A DNA stretch of 33,471 bases from Zoogloeaceae bacterium (GTDB lineage Bacteria; Pseudomonadota; Gammaproteobacteria; Burkholderiales; Rhodocyclaceae). Below, one piece after another: positions 1,083 to 33,471 of this stretch (its first letter is position 1; the number at the start of each line of letters is the position of its first letter). Position numbers and translations under genes: made by a program. The notes under the pieces were generated by a model that saw only the letters and a program-made list of their open reading frames with translations, searched no databases and had not been told where the DNA came from. The DNA lies in NCBI GenBank assembly GCA_031290955.1, contig JAISLJ010000146.1, forward strand, positions 1-33,471, given 5' to 3'.

Positions 1083-3518
1083 TCACAGCACCAATGCCCC
1101 CGGATCGCCCGGTACACCGTCCACATTGACGCCCAGCGCCTTGTCATAGAGCAGGTCGTTTGCTTCCGACTGCACATACAATCCGGGACAATCGCTGCCC
1201 AGCGGCTCGATGTCGCCTTGTTCGAGCAGGCGTTTGATGTCCCATCGGTAGAGCGTGACGCCATAGCGTTGCAGCTTGCGCATGAGCCAGCGCTCTGGGC
1301 CTTGTTGCTTCAGTCGCTGGAGCCACATGTCGATCCCGCCAGCGTTTTCTTCGCTGCCATCATCATTTTCATCGCGCTGGTAACGGACAAAGACCGTCGC
1401 GCCTTCCTCGTTGTCAATCAGATGAAAGGCTTCCGCCGCATCACGGAATCTGACTGCGCCTGTTCTCCGATCCACACGCAACATATCGCAAATCCCCTTT
1501 GCGTCCAAAATGGCATCGCCATAGAGCTTGCGAAAATACCCGGCGAAACGTTCGACGCCCACCGGGTCTTCCTCTGGATGCAAGCCTGCCCACAATTGGC
1601 GGGTCTTTTCAGCCGCCATGCGCAGCAATCCTGGTGGCGCGGGTTGGGGCGGCACGAACACGTAGACATCGCCCTTTTCCAGCCGCCCTTCCCGATTGCA
1701 GCGCCCGGCGGCCTGGACAAGGGAATCCAGCCCCGCCAGGGCGCGATAGACCACCGGGAAATCCAGATCCACGCCCGCCTCGACCAGTTGCGTGCTGATG
1801 ACCCGAATCGGCGCGGGAGTCTCTTCCGCCGCCAGCGCCTGTCGCCGCGCCGACAGGGCGGTCTTGAGCGTCCGAATCACGTCGCTGCGATGATGGGCGC
1901 ACATCAGGCCAGACAGATGCCACAGGTTGCGCGGATCGCGCCTTTTCATGCGCTGGTAGAGATCACGCGCGTCGGCGCGGCGACCCACAATGACCAGGAC
2001 GGCATCATGCCGCATGATCTCATCCGCCAGATTTTCCCAATCGCAAGGCTGTGCGCAATCGGCGGGAAGATGAAAGCGCACCCGTTCCAGCGCGGCATAG
2101 AGTCCGGGCACGTCATCCACGATTTCCCGCACCTCGCCCGGCGCGAACCCGCGCAATCCGCGTTCACCCGCCAGATCAAAACTGACGCGGGCTTCCAGCG
2201 TCGGTTGCGTTGCCGTGCACAACACCAGGCTGACGCCATAATCCCGCACCAACAGGCGCAGGACATCGATCACCGGCTGGAGGTAGGCCACGGGCAACAA
2301 TTGCGCCTCGTCCAGCACGATGACGCTCTCCGCCAGATTGTGCAGCTTGCGGCAGCGGGAAGTCTTGCGGGCAAACAGGCTTTCCAGCAACTGCACGTTG
2401 GTGGTGACGACCAGCGGAGCGTCCCAGTTTTCGCAGGCGAGCCGGGAACGCGCCGTTTCCTGCCGCTCGTCCATTTCCGCGTTGCTGTGATGCTCGATGA
2501 CGTTTTCCTTGCCAAGAATGGCGCTGAAGACATCCGCCGTCTGCTCGATGATGCTGGTATATGGAATGGCGTAGATGACCCGGCGCTTGCCGTGCAGCTG
2601 CGCGTGTCGCAGGGCAAACGCCAGACTGGAGAGCGTCTTGCCGCCGCCGGTGGGAACGGTGAGGCTGAAAACGCCCGGCGTCAGCGTGGCCTTGGCGCGG
2701 CAAGCCTGCAAGACTTCGGCGCGCTTCCGGTTGACAGGCTGTTCTGCTTCCCCGCGCTGGACAAGCTGCTGCGCCATATCCCCCAGATGCTTCGTCAACA
2801 GGTCTTCCATTTTTGACAGCGACAAGAATCCCTTGCGGGTATGCGCCTTGGGAGGCGACATGAAGGCTTCGGTATCCAGGAAATCCGCATCCACCAGACA
2901 GGAAAACAACATGCGCACCCAGAGCGCGAAACGACCGGGAATGACTTCGTTCTTCCTGATGTTGTCGGTCTTGATGCTGCCGACTTCCGGCCACGCCAGT
3001 CTGGGCCGGAGAATGGCATCGGGAATGTCGGCCGCCAGCGCGTCACGCGCCTCTCTTTGGGCGTCGTCGGTTTGAAAACGCGCTTCCAAGCCTTTATCGA
3101 ACCAATTATCCAGCCCGCTATGGTGTCCGGCGATCAAGTAGGAAAGGATGCAGGCAAAGGCGGCGCCCAGGCGAGGTTCCTGTTCGGGCAGATATTTTTG
3201 CGCCCACAACGCCCCGGCGGCCGAATGCGTTTTATCGGCCCCCGCCACCCGACCTTCGATGTGCGCGTCCGGGTCGCCGCATTGCCGGATGTAACGCTGG
3301 AATCCGGCGCGAAATTTGCCAAGGTCATGCCAGATGCCTGCCCATTCCGCCCAAATCCCGGCGCCAAACACGGCGGCAAACTTCGCCGCTTGCCGCGCGA
3401 CTGCCTGTTGATGATCCGCCAGGTCGTGGGGCAGGAGTTTTCCATTCTCCTGTCGCAGGTGGGCAAGGAAGCACACTGCAGAGGAACTCCCGCCCCAATT
3501 GGAAATGTTTTCTTCCAT
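1083..3518 (-). CDS. cas3: Cas3, type I-C HD nuclease-helicase
   Basis: This 811-aa protein degrades DNA recruited by type I-C Cascade. The N-terminal HD nuclease domain shows WHDLGKF (63-69), a THSAAGA segment near 98 and GHHSG (131-135). The superfamily 2 helicase part shows VPTGGGKT (288-295), box DEAQ (403-406), CTATQ (434-438), [14 protein letters not shown] (575-588) and [10 protein letters not shown] (602-611). All the catalytic motifs I can recognise are intact and the length is typical. The start at 3518 (MEENISNW) is chosen because GGGGAG sits about 7 nt upstream and the homologous part begins there; the frame runs open up to 3728 without plausible coding. A TACAAT -10-like box lies at 3562-3557 on the minus strand. 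cas3 is transcribed away from hldD, and cas5c follows 190 bp later. Confidence 0.96.
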
Positions 3519-3612
3519 CACGAAACTCCCCGATGTATTCGCTACAAGACACTGGGATTGTACGCCACGCCTGTCGGTTTTGGAGGACGATGCGAGGAGT
3601 CGTCTGAAATGG

Positions 3613-3640
3613 AATTTCCCGACTTCCCCGAAAATTTCCC
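3613..3640. repeat. Direct repeat pair AATTTCCC in the cas3-hldD divergent region
   Basis: AATTTCCC occurs at 3613-3620 and 3633-3640, 20 bp apart (about two helical turns), just upstream of the hldD -35 and upstream of cas3. It could be a regulator site, but no factor is recognised. Confidence 0.3.
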
Positions 3641-3644
3641 AACA

Positions 3645-3674
3645 TTGCGGGGGAAGTCCTGATTTGCTTATAAT
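3645..3674 (+). promoter_or_regulatory. Predicted sigma-70 promoter of hldD-cysM
   Basis: TTGCGG (3645-3650) and a perfect TATAAT (3669-3674) are spaced by 18 bp. Transcription would begin near 3681, which favours the hldD start at 3721 over the in-frame ATG at 3685, because the latter would sit almost at the 5' end. Confidence 0.65.
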
Positions 3675-3720
3675 GCCACGCTTCATGATTCCTCGCGCCC
3701 GCGCTCTGGCGCTCCTCTCC

Positions 3721-4722
3721 ATGCCCAATCATATCGTCATCACCGGCGCGGCCGGGTTCATTGGTTCCAATCTCATCCGGGCGCTGAACCGGCGCGGGGA
3801 GACGGAGATCATTGCCGTCGACCACCTTGCGCACTCGGAAAAATTCCGGAACCTGGTCGATTGTGACATCGCGGATTTCCTCGACAAGGAGGATTTCATC
3901 GAGCGCCTCCAGCACGGCTGGTTCGATGGCGCGGTGCGCGCCGTCCTGCACGAGGGAGCCTGTTCCAACACGATGGAAACCGATGGCCGCTACATGATGG
4001 AAAACAACTACCGCTATTCCGCCATCCTGCTGGATTGGTGCCTGGGGGAAGAAGTGCCCTTCCTCTACGCCTCCTCGGCGGCGGTCTATGGTGGAGGCAA
4101 GGTGTTCGTCGAGGCGCGCGAGCACGAGGCGCCGCTCAACATCTATGGCTATTCCAAGTTCCTGTTCGACCAGTTCGTGCGCCGACGCTTGCCGGAGGCT
4201 TCCAGCCAGATTGTGGGCCTGCGCTATTTCAACGTCTATGGCCCAAGGGAGCAGCACAAGGAGCGCATGGCCTCGGTGGCCTATCACCATTTCCGGGAAT
4301 TCATGGAACAGAAGAAGGTACGACTTTTCGCGGCTTCGCACGGCTATGCCGACGGCGCGCAATTGCGGGATTTCATCCATGTGGATGATGTGGCCCATGT
4401 CAATCTCTTCTTCCTGGATCACCCGGAACAATCCGGCATTTTCAACGTGGGCACCGGGCGGGCGCAGAGTTTCAACGATATCGCCCTCGCCGCGGTGAAC
4501 GGTTGCCGGGCGCTGGCTGGGGAAGCGGCCTTGACGCTGGAGGAAATCGTCGGGCGCGGCTTTCTGGAATACATTCCCTTGCCTGAATCCCTAGAAGGAA
4601 AATACCAGCCCTTTACCGAAGCCGACCTTGCCCGCCTGCGTTCGGCGGGCTACGAGCAAGCTTTCGCCTCGGTGGAAGAGGGCGTTGCCCGCTATGTAGC
4701 CTGGCTTGGGCAACACGCATGA
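3721..4722 (+). CDS. hldD: ADP-L-glycero-D-manno-heptose 6-epimerase
   Basis: HldD (RfaD) converts ADP-D-glycero-D-manno-heptose to the L-glycero form, the last step of activated heptose supply for the lipopolysaccharide inner core. The 333-aa protein is a short-chain dehydrogenase-type epimerase: [11 protein letters not shown] (7-17) is the NAD(P)-binding glycine loop, [10 protein letters not shown] (116-125) holds the active-site Ser region, and YGYSK (142-146) is the YxxxK catalytic pair. [19 protein letters not shown] is typical of HldD. Start 3721 (MPNHIVITG) fits family N-termini; an in-frame ATG at 3685 would add 12 residues. No strong ribosome-binding site is visible before either. 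The stop overlaps the cysM start as ATGA, so the two are co-translated. Confidence 0.95.
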
Positions 4723-8564: not shown

Positions 8565-8829
8565 TCATCGTTTTTTAACAAATTCTACGGCAGCGGCCAG
8601 ACCATTTCCGACAAAGTCCCCTGCCTCAGTAAAACGCGAAGGAATGACCAGTTCGCCTTTTCTATTGATATCGCCATAACCGCGCTTGCCCAAATGGATA
8701 CTGGACAAATCTGCGGGATTGTTTTTTTTCGTCACTGAAATTGCCGCAAGCCATCACCGGCACGACCGAGAGACGCAAGAACAGCAGGGATTTCAAGCGC
8801 AAGAGGAAGGGCATGATGATGTTCTCCAT
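8565..8829 (-). pseudogene. One-repeat WG protein split by a frameshift at an A8 tract
   Basis: From ATG 8829 the frame begins MENIIMPFLLRLKSLLFL, a signal peptide like that of the neighbouring WG protein, and hits a stop after about 56 codons. The family continuation (NPADLSSIHLGKRGYGDIN, then RKGELVIPSRFTEAGDFVGNGLAA, then VEFVKKR and a stop at 8565) is in another frame. The two parts join if the run of eight A (T8 on the plus strand, 8722-8729) has one base fewer. The restored product would be about 87 aa with a single WG repeat, a short relic next to 8- and 36-repeat relatives. It may be dead, or it may be switched by slippage at the homopolymer. Confidence 0.7.
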
Positions 8830-8945
8830 GATTCGTTGGGAAAGAAGGGCGCTTCCAGAAAACGGAAAGTGGAAGCGGCATCGCCGGAAGGCAGGAGGTT
8901 ATTTTTCATCTTTTTACTTTACGTCCTGTTCCGCGCAAATATGCT
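8810..8945 (-). repeat. Upstream copy of a duplicated WG-gene boundary (pair with 9920-10060)
   Basis: This stretch contains the start of one WG gene (ATGGAGAACATCAT on minus) and the tail of the next. It is clearly similar to 9920-10060: both carry TTCGTTGGGAAAGAAGGG, GCCGGAAGGCAGG, CATCTTTTTACTTTAC and CTGTTCCGCGCAAAT in order. It is a junction left by tandem duplication of whole WG genes, and probably carries their promoters. Confidence 0.7.
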
Positions 8946-9924
8946 CGGCGGATTTTTGGGGCCAGACAATTTCATCTTTTGCGTTCTTCAAAACCATTGT
9001 TCCACAAACCAAAGTCTCCAGGAGCACAAACTGCATGTTTCGATCAATCATCCCGAGCCGTCCCTCCTCCTTGACCCAGGCCAGACCATTTTCGGCAAAG
9101 TTCCCTGCGTCGTCGAAGCGCAGGGGAATGACGAACTTGCCCCGTTTGTCAATATAACCCACCTTGCCATTTTCCATGACGCCAGCTAGGCCATTGTCGG
9201 TAAAGGTGTATGCGAAATCGAAGCGCGGTGGAATGGCGAATTTTCCCTGCTTGCTGATGAATCCCCATTTTCCTTTCGCTTCGACGGCAGCCAGGCCGTT
9301 ATCGGCAAAAGACCACGCATCGTCGAAACGCGGCGGGATGATGAACTTTCCCTGCTGGTCGATGTATCCCCATTTGCCTTTTTCCTTGACGGGCGCTAGA
9401 CCGTTGTCGGCAAAGGGCCTTGCGTCGTCGAAACGCGACGGGATAACGAACTTGCCTTGTTGGTCAATGTATCCGCATTTGCCTTTTTCCATGACAGGCG
9501 CCAGGCCGCCGTCGGCAAAGCCCCATGTGGCGGCGAAACGTGGCGGGATGATGAACTTGCCTCGCTGGTCAATGAATCCCCATCCGCTATTTTCCTTGAC
9601 GGGCGCCAGACCATTGTCGGCAAAGGGCAGCGCCAAGTCGAAACGCAGCGGGATGATGAACTTTCCCTGCTGGTCGATGTATCCCCATTTGCCTTTTTCC
9701 TTGACGGGCGCCAGACCATTGTTGGCAAAGGGGAATGCGTCATCAAAACGAAGCGGGATGCGCAGTTCGCCTTTCCCGTTGATGTAACCGTATTGGCCAT
9801 GAAAGGAGATCATGCGCAAGTCCGCAGGATTGCTTTCCACACAGGCAGCCTCGCCGCCAACCATCAGCAACAGTACCGCGAAGCTCAAGAACAGCAGAGA
9901 TTTCAAAGGCAAAAGGAAAGGCAT
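8914..9924 (-). CDS. Secreted WG-repeat protein, single module
   Basis: The 336-aa product begins with a signal peptide (MPFLLPLKSLLFLSFAVLLL to about residue 27) and then has about eight WG repeats of 35 residues, each of the form K-WGYIDQQGKFIIPPRFD----FADNGLAPV. A cap segment follows: MIDRNMQFVLLET, TMVLKNAKDEIVWP and a short tail. WG repeats form small beta units; the fold is known but no enzyme activity is. Start 9924 is preferred to the ATG at 9936 because GGAG lies 6 nt before it; the same ATG-GGAG-ATG arrangement recurs before the giant relative. The protein should be exported. Its neighbours are two paralogues on the same strand, so the locus grew by tandem duplication. Confidence 0.85.
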   Translation of the reverse strand: MPFLLPLKSLLFLSFAVLLLMVGGEAACVESNPADLRMISFHGQYGYINGKGELRIPLRFDDAFPFANNGLAPVKEKGKWGYIDQQGKFIIPLRFDLALPFADNGLAPVKENSGWGFIDQRGKFIIPPRFAATWGFADGGLAPVMEKGKCGYIDQQGKFVIPSRFDDARPFADNGLAPVKEKGKWGYIDQQGKFIIPPRFDDAWSFADNGLAAVEAKGKWGFISKQGKFAIPPRFDFAYTFTDNGLAGVMENGKVGYIDKRGKFVIPLRFDDAGNFAENGLAWVKEEGRLGMIDRNMQFVLLETLVCGTMVLKNAKDEIVWPQKSAEHICAEQDVK

Positions 9925-10060
9925 GATGTTCTCCATGAATTCGTTGGGAAAGAAGGGGGGTTCCCGCAAACGAAAAGTGTTCTCGGCATTGCCGGAAGGC
10001 AGGGGTTATTCTTTTTCATCTTTTTACTTTACATCCTGTTCCGCGCAAATCTGCTCGGCG
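9920..10060 (-). repeat. Downstream copy of the duplicated WG-gene boundary
   Basis: This is the partner of 8810-8945. It covers the start of the 336-aa WG gene, the intergenic stretch, and the end of the giant WG gene. The giant's last codons (PNPPSRFARNRM) are the same DNA as the paralogue's tail (KSAEHICAEQDVK) read in another frame, because CCCCAAAAATCC has become CCCCCAAATCC, a net loss of one base. Confidence 0.65.
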
Positions 10061-13000
10061 GATTTGGGGGCCAGACGATTTCGTTCCTGGCGTTTTTCAG
10101 AACCATCGTCCCGCCGACTGAATCCCTGAAGAGCACGATCTGGTCATTTCGGTCGATGTACTTCACTTTGCCGTTCTCGGCGACAAAAGCCAGACCGTTG
10201 GCGGCAAAGCCATGCGCCTCGTCGAAACGCGGCGAGATAACGAACTTGCCCTGCGCATCCATATATCCCCATTTGCCATTCTCTTCCCGGACGGGGGCCA
10301 GACCGTTATCGGCAAAACTCCCCGCCACATCCATGAAAAAATCCCCTGCATCGCCGATACGCAGGAGAATGACAAATTCGCCTTGCCGGTCAATGAATCC
10401 CGTTTTGTCATTGTCCTGCGCAACCGCCAGGCCGTTACTGGCAAAGCCCTCCGTGCCGATGAAACGCGGGGGAATAACGAACGCGCCCTGTTGGTCAATG
10501 AACCCGTATTTGTGATTTTCCACGGCCAGAGCCAGGCCGTTGTCGGAAAAAGACCAGGCGTTTTCAAAGCGCGGGGGAATCACGAATTCGCCCCGCTGGT
10601 CAATGTAGCCCCATTTTCCCTTTTCCATGACGCAAGCCAGACCGTTGGCGGCAAAATCCCATGCTCCATCAAAACGCGGGGGGATCACGAATTCGCCTTG
10701 CGTGTCAACATATCCCCATTTTTCTTTCTTCCACCATTTAGCACTCCTTTCCCGAACGCAAGCCAGACCGTTGGCGGCAAAACTCCACGCGAAGCCGAAA
10801 TGCGGTGAAATGGCGAACTTGCCCTGTTGGTCAATGAATCCCCATTTGCCATTCTCCTGGACAGCCGCCAGACCATTGGCGGCAAAATCCATTGCGTCGT
10901 CAAAACGTGGCGGAATGACCAGTTCGCCTTGCCCATTGAGGTAGGCAAACTTGTTGTCAAAATCAATTGGCGACAGGCGGGTGGAATTTGTTGCTTCAGC
11001 GGAATTTTCGCTGGCGACCGAAGGCGCAGCCACCTCACGCGGGAGAGAGAGATCAGGAATCCGATCAGCGAATCCGGGCGGCCAGAGGATTTCGTCCTTG
11101 GCGTTCTTCAGCACCTTTGTTTCGCCCACAAAATCCTCGAAGAGCACGATCTGGCCGTTTCGGTCAATGATGCTCCATTTTCCCTCCTCCTTGACTTCCG
11201 CCAGACCATTGTCGGCAAAGTCCTCTGCCTCGTCGAAACGTGGCGGGATCACGTATTTTCCCTGCTGGTCAATGTATCCCCATTTACCCTTCTCTTCCAC
11301 CAGCGCCAGATCGTTACGGGCAAAATTATCTGCGTTGTCAAAACGCAGGGGGATTGCGTACTTACCTTGTCGGTCAATAAATCCCCATTTGTCACCCTCC
11401 CTGACCAGAGCCAGACCATTGTCGGCAAAGTCCTCTACCGCGTCGAAACGTGGCAGAATCACGTATTTTCCCTGCTGGTCAATGTATCCCCATTTTCCAT
11501 TTCCGGCCAAAACACAAGCCAGACCGTTGTCGGCAAATAGCCATGCGCTGTCGAAACGCGAGGGGATCACGTACTCGCCCTGCTGGTCAATATATCCCCA
11601 TTGCCCATCCTCATCGGCAACATGAGCCAGACCGTTCTTGGCGAAGTTCCCTACGTTGTCAAAACGCGGGGGGATTGCGTACTTACCCTGTCGGTCAATA
11701 AATCCCCATTCGTCACCCTCCCTGACGGGAGCCAGACCACTGTCGGCAAAGTTCCCTACCGCGTCGAAACGTAGCGGGATCACGTACTTTCCCTGCTGGT
11801 CAATGTATCCCCATTTTCCATTCTCCTTGACGTAAGCCAGAGCGTTGTCGGCAAAGGGCCATGCGGAGTCGAAACGCGATGGGATGACGTACTTGCCCTG
11901 CTGGTCAATGAATCCCCATTTGCCATCCTCTTCGACAGGGGCCAGATCGTTGCCATCAAACCCACATGCGTTATCGAAATGCGGGGGGATAACGTACTTG
12001 CCCTGTTGGTCAATAAATCCCCATTTTTCCTTCTCTTCCACCAGCGCCAGACCGTTGCCATCAAACACCCATGCCTCGTCAAAATGCGGAGGAATGCACA
12101 ATTCTCCTCTTCCATTGATATAGCCGTATTTGCCATCAAACAGGATTCGCAACAAGTGCGCGGAATTTGTTGCCTCAGCAGCGGAATTATCGCTGGCGAC
12201 CGAAGGCGCAGCCACCTCACGCGAGAGAGATATATCAAGAATCCGATCAGCGAGCTTGAGCGGCCAGAGAATTTCGTCTTTGGCGTTCTTCAGCACCTTT
12301 GTTTCGCCAATGAAATCCTCGAAAAGTACCACCTCTCCCTTCCGGTCAATGACCATCCGCTTGCCATCTTCTTCGACACAGGCCAGACCGTTATCGGAAA
12401 ATTCGCCTGCCTTGTTGAAACGCCGTAGAATAACATACTTGCCCTGTTGGTCAATGTAGCCCCACTTTCCTTTCTCCCCCCATTTACCCTGGACTGGAGT
12501 CAGACCACTGGTGATAAATTTTTCGTCAACAAACCTGCCCTGTTGGTCAACGAACCTCCATTTGCCATCTTTCTTGACACGAGCCAGACCGTCGTCGGCA
12601 AAATGCCATGTGAAGTCAAAGCTAAATGTGTCGTCAAAACGCGGGGGAATGACAAACCTACCCCGCTGATCAATATATCCCCATTTTCCATTCTCTTTGA
12701 CGGAGGCCAGACCGTTGGCGGCAAAAGTTTCTGCTCTATCGAAACGCGGGGGGATGACAAACTCGCCCTGCTGATCGATGTATCCCCATTTGCCATTCTC
12801 CACCTCCCGGACCGGAGCCAGGCCATTCTTGGCAAAATCGTCTGCGTGGTCGAAACGCGGGGGGATGACGTACTCGCCTTGCCTGTTGATGTACCCGAAT
12901 TTTCCCATATCTTCTTCAGCATCTTCTACGACGGAAGCCAGACCATTATCGGCAAAGCTGCCTGCTATCGTGAAGCGCGGGGGAATTACGTACACACCCT

Positions 13001-14450
13001 GCCGGTCAATGTACCCGTATTTACCATTCTCCATGTCAATGACGCAAGCCAGACCGCTGTCGTCAAAGCCCAGAGTGTCTTCAAAATGCGGGGCAATGAC
13101 GATCTCGCCCTGCCGGTCAAGAAATCCCCATTTGCCATCCTTTTGGACAGGAATCCGATCCTTGTCAAAATCTTCTATGGAAACGTTTGTGCTGTCGAAA
13201 CGCGGCGGGATGCGCAATTCTCCCTTTCCATTGATATAGCCATATTTGCCATCAAACTGGATGGGTGACAGGCGGTCAGGATTTATTCCTTCGCAGGAGA
13301 TGGAATCCTCACCGATGGCCAGTGGTACAGCCGTATCGCAAATCCGGGTAGCGCGTTCGGAAGGCCAGACGATTTCGTTCCTGGCGTTTTTCAGAACCTT
13401 TGTCCTGCCGACAAAATCCTCGAAGAGCACAATTTGCCCCTTCCGGTTGATGACCATCCGCTTGCCCTTTTCTTCGACACAAGCCAGACAGTTGTCGACA
13501 AAATCCTCTGCTTCGTCGAGGCGCGGGGGAACGATGTATTTGCCCTGCTGGTCAATGTATCCCCATTTTCCTTTCTTCCACCATTTTCCCTTCTCTTTGA
13601 CCAAAGCCAGACCGTTGTCGGCAAAGATCCCTGCGTCGTCGAAACACGGATGGATACGGAATTTTCCCTGCTTGTCGATGTATCCCCATTTGCCACGCTC
13701 CTTGACGGGAGCCAGACCGTTATCGGCAAAATCCCATGCTTCGTCGAAACGCGGGGAAATCATGAATCTGCCCCGTTGATCAATGTACCCATATTTGCCC
13801 TTCTCCGCGACGGCAGCCCGACCGTTATCGGCAAAGAATCCTGCCTTGTCGAAGCGCGGCGGGATGGCGAATTTTCCCTGCGAATCAATGTATCCCCATT
13901 TGCCCTTCTCTTTGACCAGCGCCAGACCGTTATCAGAAAAACCCCATGTTTCGTCGAAACGCGGGGAGATGACGAACTCGCCTTGCGGGTCAATGAACCC
14001 ATATCTGCCTTTCTCTTTGGCCGGGGCCAGGCCATTGTCGGCAAAGCGCCCTGCGAAGTCGAAACGCGGCGGGATCACGTATTCGCCTTGCAGTCCAATG
14101 TACCCATCTTTGCCATTCTCTTCAACAGGAGCCAGACCATTATCGGAAAAAGCCCCTGCGTGATCAAAACGCAGCGGGATGACGTACTTGCCCTGCACAT
14201 CAATGTATCCCCATCTCTCCTTCTCCTGGACACCCGCCAGACCGTTGTTGGCAAAGTCCCCTACTTCGTCAAAACGTGGTGGAATGACCAATTCGCCTTT
14301 TTCATTGAGATAACCGTATTTTCCCTCAAACTGGATCGGGAACAAGCTTGCGGAATTTGTTTCTTCACAGGCGGAATCATCGTCGACAGCCAGCGGAATC
14401 GCCGCCCCATCCTGGAACCGCATGGATTGCAAACGACGGAAAATGGACAT
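10029..14450 (-). CDS. Giant WG-repeat protein made of four fused modules
   Basis: This 1473-aa protein holds about 36 WG repeats of roughly 35 residues in four blocks of 8-10. Each block opens with a first repeat of the type (K)YGYLN-KGELVIPPRFD and ends with a cap like VLFEDFVGETKVLKNAKDEILWP. The linkers between blocks (for example ADRI-D-SLSREVAAPSVAS) match the pre-repeat region of single-module relatives, so the gene is a four-fold tandem duplication read through without stops. Unlike the 336-aa neighbour it shows no signal peptide: the N-terminus is MSIFRRLQSMRFQDGAAIPLAV. Two repeats carry a KWWKK insert. Start 14450 follows GGAG at 6 nt; an in-frame ATG is at 14462. The role is unknown; a binding scaffold is possible. 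Base composition looks lower in GC than the flanking housekeeping genes. Confidence 0.88.
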   Translation of the reverse strand: MSIFRRLQSMRFQDGAAIPLAVDDDSACEETNSASLFPIQFEGKYGYLNEKGELVIPPRFDEVGDFANNGLAGVQEKERWGYIDVQGKYVIPLRFDHAGAFSDNGLAPVEENGKDGYIGLQGEYVIPPRFDFAGRFADNGLAPAKEKGRYGFIDPQGEFVISPRFDETWGFSDNGLALVKEKGKWGYIDSQGKFAIPPRFDKAGFFADNGRAAVAEKGKYGYIDQRGRFMISPRFDEAWDFADNGLAPVKERGKWGYIDKQGKFRIHPCFDDAGIFADNGLALVKEKGKWWKKGKWGYIDQQGKYIVPPRLDEAEDFVDNCLACVEEKGKRMVINRKGQIVLFEDFVGRTKVLKNARNEIVWPSERATRICDTAVPLAIGEDSISCEGINPDRLSPIQFDGKYGYINGKGELRIPPRFDSTNVSIEDFDKDRIPVQKDGKWGFLDRQGEIVIAPHFEDTLGFDDSGLACVIDMENGKYGYIDRQGVYVIPPRFTIAGSFADNGLASVVEDAEEDMGKFGYINRQGEYVIPPRFDHADDFAKNGLAPVREVENGKWGYIDQQGEFVIPPRFDRAETFAANGLASVKENGKWGYIDQRGRFVIPPRFDDTFSFDFTWHFADDGLARVKKDGKWRFVDQQGRFVDEKFITSGLTPVQGKWGEKGKWGYIDQQGKYVILRRFNKAGEFSDNGLACVEEDGKRMVIDRKGEVVLFEDFIGETKVLKNAKDEILWPLKLADRILDISLSREVAAPSVASDNSAAEATNSAHLLRILFDGKYGYINGRGELCIPPHFDEAWVFDGNGLALVEEKEKWGFIDQQGKYVIPPHFDNACGFDGNDLAPVEEDGKWGFIDQQGKYVIPSRFDSAWPFADNALAYVKENGKWGYIDQQGKYVIPLRFDAVGNFADSGLAPVREGDEWGFIDRQGKYAIPPRFDNVGNFAKNGLAHVADEDGQWGYIDQQGEYVIPSRFDSAWLFADNGLACVLAGNGKWGYIDQQGKYVILPRFDAVEDFADNGLALVREGDKWGFIDRQGKYAIPLRFDNADNFARNDLALVEEKGKWGYIDQQGKYVIPPRFDEAEDFADNGLAEVKEEGKWSIIDRNGQIVLFEDFVGETKVLKNAKDEILWPPGFADRIPDLSLPREVAAPSVASENSAEATNSTRLSPIDFDNKFAYLNGQGELVIPPRFDDAMDFAANGLAAVQENGKWGFIDQQGKFAISPHFGFAWSFAANGLACVRERSAKWWKKEKWGYVDTQGEFVIPPRFDGAWDFAANGLACVMEKGKWGYIDQRGEFVIPPRFENAWSFSDNGLALAVENHKYGFIDQQGAFVIPPRFIGTEGFASNGLAVAQDNDKTGFIDRQGEFVILLRIGDAGDFFMDVAGSFADNGLAPVREENGKWGYMDAQGKFVISPRFDEAHGFAANGLAFVAENGKVKYIDRNDQIVLFRDSVGGTMVLKNARNEIVWPPNPPSRFARNRM

Positions 14451-14874
14451 GGCAGTCTCCATGAATCAGGAAAGGCAAGAAAAATACACGAAATATGCAA
14501 GAAAAGCAATGCGGATACAGGCGCGGTTGTTTGCCTCTCTCCTGCATCCGGGCATTCTCTTCGTCATTGTGAAGGAATGTCTGAACAAGTCCCTTTTCCG
14601 AAAAACAAATCTAATAAAATCAATGATATAAACTGCTGGCCTGGGACTTTTTCAGCGTTTCCTGAACGGAGCGGCACTTCCGCAAGCAGCGATACTGCGA
14701 GCAGAAAGGGGAAATGGCGACACGATTTCTTTTTGTCGTCTGGCAGCGTGGTTCTTCGTTCCGCACAAATCTGCCCGAATCCTATTTCTCGGCTGGACTT
14801 CTGCTTCGTCGCGCCCGCCCCGACACCAATTCCACGCCTTGCGGCGAAAGTACTGGCGTCTTGCGGCAGTATCC
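14451..14874. other. Non-coding gap between giant WG gene and pilU terminator
   Basis: About 420 bp with no convincing gene. The stretch near 14590-14640 is AT-rich (AATAAAATCAATGATATAAAC) and probably carries the WG gene promoter, but I cannot place -35 and -10 boxes with confidence. Short overlapping frames on both strands show no family features. Confidence 0.4.
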
Positions 14875-14913
14875 CAAAAAGAAAACGCGGCGGGAAATGC
14901 GATTTCCCGCCGC
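14875..14913 (-). terminator. Rho-independent terminator of pilT-pilU
   Basis: GCGGCGGGAAAT (14887-14898) and ATTTCCCGCCGC (14902-14913) form a perfect 12-bp stem with a GCG loop. On the minus strand it is followed by GTTTTCTTTTT. It lies about 50 bp past the pilU stop, in the direction of pilU transcription. Confidence 0.88.
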
Positions 14914-14965
14914 GATCCCCCACAGTTTTTAAAGTTGCCGTCCGCCAAGACTCCGCCAGGACGAC

Positions 14966-33062: not shown

Positions 33063-33471
33063 ACATTCCCGGATTTGCTGCGCCGTGCCCGCTTGTGGCG
33101 GGCAAGCGGCTATGCCCATGCCAAACAGTTTAGGCGGCTCAAACGGACGCTCAAACGGCAGCGGACGATCCTGGGCATCGTGCTGCGCGAGATTGGGCGC
33201 AAGCGACCGGAGGCGACGTTGGAGAATTCGGCGAGGATAAGCCATATGGATCATTTGTTGGCGCGCGCCGAACGGATTCGCAAGCAGCAACCCAAGGATA
33301 AAAACAAGCTCTACACCCTGCATGCGCCGGAGGTGGAATGCATCGGCAAGGGCAAGGCCAGGAAGCGCTATGAGTTTGGCGTCAAGGTAGGCATCGCGGT
33401 GACGCACAAACAAGGGTTAATCGTGGGCGCAAGAGCCTTTCCGGGCAATCCTTATGACGGACACATTCTAC
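33063..33471 (+). pseudogene. IS5-type transposase, 5'-truncated and cut by the window edge
   Basis: In the frame of 33072 the translation reads PDLLRRARLWRASGYAHAKQF, KLYTLHAPEVECIGKGKARK and YEFGVKVGIAVTHKQ, then FPGNPYDGHIL at the edge. This is the middle part of an IS5-group DDE transposase (the HAPEVECIGKGKA and PGNPYDGHT-like motifs are typical). About the first 180 residues, including the first catalytic Asp, are missing: the sequence upstream is unrelated and there is no start. The element was therefore broken on its left side. Whether the right end is intact cannot be seen. Confidence 0.85.

Follow-up and report, generated by a model that had tools for sequence, protein, structure and literature searches.

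Sequence comparisons give good support to the view that the four-module WG-repeat gene described here (hereafter the giant) arose by fusion of tandemly repeated copies of a small gene whose product is exported. It is located on contig JAISLJ010000146.1 of the Zoogloeaceae bacterium assembly GCA_031290955.1, the window being the whole stretch of 33,471 nt that was analysed. The source is a fragmented metagenome-assembled genome (2.05 Mb, 227 contigs, 73% complete) which is rich in WG repeats (118 matches across 10 contigs). We consider it reasonably probable that fusion of exported gene copies gave rise to a cytoplasmic four-module binding platform, with decay of the export signal and loss of Cys residues. 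The reading that a periplasmic module harbouring a Cys pair became a cytoplasmic platform by fusion, signal loss and Cys loss being coupled and signal-peptide fossils persisting at the start and at every joint, is put forward more tentatively.

Parsing of the giant yields blocks of 8, 8, 9 and 7 WG units, each followed by an end cap, i.e. 32 WG units plus four caps (Table 1). This agrees with an earlier note made from the letters of this DNA, which had described four blocks, each with an end cap, and about 36 repeats. The near copies it had seen among the repeats of block 3 are likewise recovered, as units 3.3-3.5 and 3.6-3.8 are tandem duplicates (85.7% identity across 318 nt) and single units are up to 90% identical. 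Searched with the Pfam family WG_beta_rep (PF14903), the giant reaches 1123.6 bits in 30 stretches, repeatedly exceeding the curated cut-off of 25.6. The end-cap motif LKNAxxEIxWP follows the last WG unit of all four modules, the caps scoring 67-71 bits each. While all WG units of the giant belong to PF14903, most of the members examined have one module, preceded by a lipobox or signal peptide; among them, only the giant was found to unite four capped modules in a chain. Within this family we define, in the present analysis, a capped exported WG subfamily by the cap, a signal peptide or lipobox, and a Cys pair. The giant has the cap; in place of a signal peptide or lipobox it has an N-terminus of low hydropathy (0.68) with a charged core, and the Cys pair is missing.

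Table 1. Features of the WG array, in coordinates of the window.
Feature	Position	Strand	Remark
Four-module WG protein (giant)	10029..14450	-	one open frame, 1,474 aa
Shine-Dalgarno-like GGAG	14457..14460	-	6 nt ahead of ATG 14450
Putative decayed signal peptide MSIFRRLQSMRFQDGAAIPLAVDDDS	14373..14450	-	gapless in-frame homologue of L067 MSFFLRLKFLPFLGFVAALLIVGGHS
Module 1	13461..14318	-	8 WG units, by parsing
Cap 1	13362..13460	-	without cap Cys, by parsing
Linker 1	13245..13361	-	putative tail remnant SERATRIC, signal-peptide second half AVPLAIGEDS, mature N-terminus
Module 2	12360..13244	-	8 WG units, one truncated (unit 2.7), by parsing
Cap 2	12261..12359	-	without cap Cys, by parsing
Linker 2	12129..12260	-	putative tail remnant ADRIL, signal-peptide remnant AAPSVASDNS
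Module 3	11178..12128	-	9 WG units, by parsing
Three-unit tandem duplication within module 3	11283..11918 (11601-11918 + 11283-11600)	-	85.7% identical
Cap 3	11079..11177	-	without cap Cys, by parsing
Linker 3	10950..11078	-	near copy of linker 2, 81% DNA identity
Module 4	10164..10949	-	7 WG units, by parsing
Cap 4	10068..10163	-	without cap Cys; motif nearest that of the neighbour's cap (GTMVLKNA)
C-terminal tail of giant	10032..10067	-	frameshifted relative to neighbour's tail
Giant's 3' end and spacer	9939..10070	-	copy after neighbour at 8831-8960
Single-module exported neighbour	8914..9924	-	336 aa, signal peptide, 7 WG units + cap, Cys307 + Cys330
Dead third copy	8565..8814	-	signal-peptide start MPFLLRLKSLLFL, then frameshifts, single WG unit remaining
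Strong terminator-like hairpin	14886..14914	-	after pilU; separates WG array from pil genes

The reading frame of the giant ends with a stop at 10029 and likely starts at ATG 14450, since the spacing of the preceding GGAG equals that in front of the neighbour, which starts at ATG 9924, and of L067, a single-module capped WG gene of the same-genus genome G019 which is 52% identical to the neighbour. This GGAG-6 nt-ATG layout is common to all three genes. An alternative in-frame ATG at 14462 would lead to a product of 1,477 plus one residues starting with Met-Glu-Thr-Ala; two codons before it the frame is shut by a TGA. As the hairpin stands after pilU, the WG array is probably a transcription unit of its own. 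The opposite (+) strand is nearly open across 10029-14462 (6 stops per about 1,478 codons), probably as a by-product of WG repeat codon use. Elsewhere in the window, positions 1083-3728 (-) hold a single frame with Cas3-like HD and helicase domains and a TTG start. An origin of the giant's length in assembly collapse was set aside as unlikely because no stretch of 40 nt or longer recurs exactly within the gene; given, in addition, a divergence of about 30% of positions between WG units taken from separate modules, ordinary short-read assembly should be able to resolve it.

The first 26 residues of the giant are collinear with the L067 signal peptide, no gap being needed, with 9/25 residues and 49/75 nt identical, a match which none of 20,000 codon shuffles equalled (0/20,000). 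Compared with the signal peptide of the neighbour, 37/75 nt are identical (p 5e-5). The best 12-residue hydropathy, however, amounts to merely 0.68 in the giant versus 2.99 in the neighbour and 2.73 in L067, and charged residues occupy the former hydrophobic core. Hence, the N-terminus of the giant is well supported as a decayed signal peptide rather than a merely absent one. This goes beyond the earlier note, in which the giant appeared to have lost its export signal and the 336-aa neighbour to have one; both points are supported. A cytoplasmic location of the giant is thus likely, and WG proteins devoid of a signal peptide do exist elsewhere in the source genome, such as a protein in which a TIR domain is fused to WG repeats (L032:2639-3865 (+), contig 46). 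The latter yields PADLOC matches to ThsB-like and PDC-S66 TIR proteins and could possibly act in defence, its WG part being the sensor. Further WG proteins, at L116:2466-3380 (-) and L031:16566-17294 (-), begin with a zinc-ribbon-like CxxC part and also have a hydrophobic stretch, which suggests a membrane-spanning form.

Alternatively, the giant could still be exported, via a non-classical route or an unrecognised signal, and simply be a longer envelope protein. Where the N-terminus of a close relative is complete, its signal predicts export, and a hydrophobic in-frame run (IAFLAYFVYFSCLS) is present just past the TGA upstream of the giant. We nevertheless regard continued export as quite improbable: the TGA separates the run from the gene, 170/2000 shuffles (8.5%) are equally hydrophobic, and no such run was found upstream of the start in relatives. 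As the GGAG-ATG layout is, in addition, conserved, an upstream signal peptide is not supported and was rejected. Low hydropathy of the actual N-terminus and absence of the Cys pair also speak against export, and no context typical of a secretion substrate is seen, with pilU/pilT and the dead WG copy as the flanking genes.

The Cys pair, formed by one residue of the cap and one of the tail, is present in 15/16 single-module relatives and in 0/4 modules of the giant, of which module 1 retains the tail Cys only; most of the capped genes fetched afterwards carry the pair as well. The natural reading is that these two residues would form a disulphide. The cap motif adjacent to the lost Cys is intact in 4/4 modules. 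L067, the nearest relative, is devoid of the cap Cys yet possesses a signal peptide, for which reason Cys loss alone is no proof of relocation. Nor do the losses in the giant represent four independent events since modules 1-3 share ancestry, so that the value of a Fisher test on these counts exaggerates the contrast.

The linkers carry the principal evidence for fusion. Single-module capped genes end with a tail of the type WP-KxxAxxIC-EQ and start with a signal peptide or lipobox. Within the 24 nt following caps 1, 2 and 3, 16, 13 and 13 positions, respectively, are identical to the tail of L067; among 1,469 in-frame windows taken across the giant, 1, 5 and 5 score as high. Over the next 30 nt, 18, 20 and 19 positions agree with the L067 signal peptide in its second half, and 4, 2 and 3 of 1,467 windows match as well; at 24-30 nt all these matches are short. 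Each linker thus appears to hold remnants of a C-terminal tail followed by those of a signal peptide and a mature N-terminus, in line with the earlier observation that the linker matches the pre-repeat part. A linker in which a gene's end is followed by a gene's signal peptide is to be read as a joint between genes. At its own 3' end the DNA of the giant is identical to that of the neighbour at 57/62 positions, yet it reads NPPSRFARNRM instead of KSAEHICAEQDVK; the tail Cys is lost because of this frameshift. The spacer that follows the giant recurs after the neighbour, at 80% identity across 76 nt and 92% across 62 nt, and such a duplicated 3' spacer reads as the footprint of tandem gene duplication. 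Taken with the dead third copy, the tail and half signal peptide in every linker and the duplicated spacer sustain the earlier proposal that tandem copies were fused. It is very improbable that, without any fusion, one gene grew by WG slippage with caps and linkers being duplicated internally. WG units do duplicate within module 3, and link 3 is nearly a copy of link 2, as such growth would predict; the linkers, however, bear features confined to gene ends, and module 4 and the neighbour share their terminal 3' DNA.

In a sister species two capped WG genes are adjacent (L068:3802-6626 (-)), and contig 18 of genome G012 harbours, at 33152-33256, a cap fragment with a TGA, apparently a decayed third gene; tandem copying is consequently not peculiar to the locus of the giant. 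Contig 32 of the source genome encodes a 1,085-aa WG protein without signal peptide (L031:4725-7979 (+)), which shows an internal GYIR end succeeded by a new AIPPRF start and looks like a two-module fusion of a 543-aa type from the same contig.

As judged from their C-terminal ends, modules 1-3 form one clade (support 99/96) while module 4 falls outside; it resembles the neighbour, both caps reading GTMVLKNA. Because of this clade and of the near identity of links 2 and 3, the four modules are probably not the products of four equal fusions, at least one module having been duplicated after fusion. The simplest order would be that unlike copies fused, that a linker-plus-module unit was duplicated and that growth inside module 3 followed. 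The divergence of the modules is old, for their synonymous distances from one another (0.82-1.03) equal or exceed those separating them from L067 of another species (0.65-0.96).

The giant could also be a relic of a decaying tandem array, having lost export by drift, being useless and heading towards a pseudogene like the third copy. The dead third copy, the frameshifted tail, the loss of signal peptide and Cys pair and the truncation of unit 2.7 would fit this possibility. We hold it to be unlikely, since 1,474 codons are free of stops and the cap motif is intact in all four modules although the Cys residues are gone. Moreover, dN/dS amounts to 0.28-0.34 between the modules and to 0.45 (bootstrap interval 0.24-0.87) for the youngest duplication, that of three units in module 3, values which indicate purifying selection and argue for a maintained protein even if part of this selection history may predate signal loss. 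With an open frame and dN/dS <1 the giant does not have the hallmarks of a pseudogene.

We favour instead that capped WG-repeat genes for an exported protein, lying in a tandem array, became a single reading frame when deletions at the joints took out the stop codon, the spacer and the leading half of the signal peptide that followed. Internal duplication would later have added at least one module plus extra repeats. The first signal peptide would have decayed in place by substitutions putting charged residues into its hydrophobic core, and the Cys pair beside each cap would have been lost. The product would be a chain in the cytoplasm, its four beta-rich WG modules connected by flexible linkers; the most plausible, if speculative, role for it is that of a multivalent platform for protein binding. 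Loss of signal peptides by gradual mutation is known among orthologues (PMC5952966, Genome Biol Evol 2018). As in the giant, it proceeded there through accumulated substitutions and not by truncation; those cases, however, concern single orthologues, while in the giant the loss goes together with the fusion of tandem copies, and further remnants of signals lie within the protein. Gene fusions born from deletions, in which gene pieces are joined in frame, have also been described (PMC12803068, preprint 2026). The giant shares this mode of joining and differs in that tandem paralogues were joined, and more than once per gene.

The AlphaFold2 model of the neighbour module is confident (pLDDT 85.9, pTM 0.78), beta-rich and composed of repeated three-strand units. 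Foldseek relates it to beta-propellers such as BamB, eIF2A and NirN with a probability of 1.0, the matches being local (TM-score about 0.5, rmsd 6-9 Å), and a viral library gave a like result. The likeness to beta-propellers (BamB, WD40) is thus local; since the number of WG units varies from 7 to 22 within the genus, a closed ring of blades, by which beta-propellers are defined, would be no more than a possibility for the WG module. A search by sequence for solved relatives found none. The literature found on PF14903 consists of one modelling paper that had no template of use, and WG proteins of Pseudomonas and Acidovorax are mentioned in passing. With pLDDT 66.8 and pTM 0.40, the two-module model is weak and can be read only for its low-confidence parts, the N-terminus and the linker being among its least confident stretches; the linkers are probably flexible and disordered.

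No second multi-cap gene was found in 20 genomes of the same genus or in about 280 others of the same family, where all remaining capped open frames have one cap. As the family search, of 299 genomes, sampled a larger group and many of the genomes are fragmented, the giant is to be called rare rather than proved unique. L067 shares cap, tail and Shine-Dalgarno layout with the neighbour, and its signal peptide aligns with the N-terminus of the giant, from which it differs by its one module, its intact signal peptide and its locus. A locus shared with relatives was considered and rejected, as nothing in the stretch after pilU in 12 same-genus genomes matches the WG gene of the neighbour, some of these contigs ending within 1-4 kb. 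Neither giant nor neighbour matched any PADLOC defence family, and among NCBIfam models the neighbour gave only a weak TmcD match far below cut-off.

If the fusion account is right, the locus would be a readable record of a protein family changing compartment, in which fusion joints, decayed signal and lost Cys pair can be compared with sister genes. The giant, the working neighbour, the dead copy and the single-gene relative would then constitute a natural set that lets one ask whether a reducing compartment removes the disulphide of a repeat protein and frees it for new partners.
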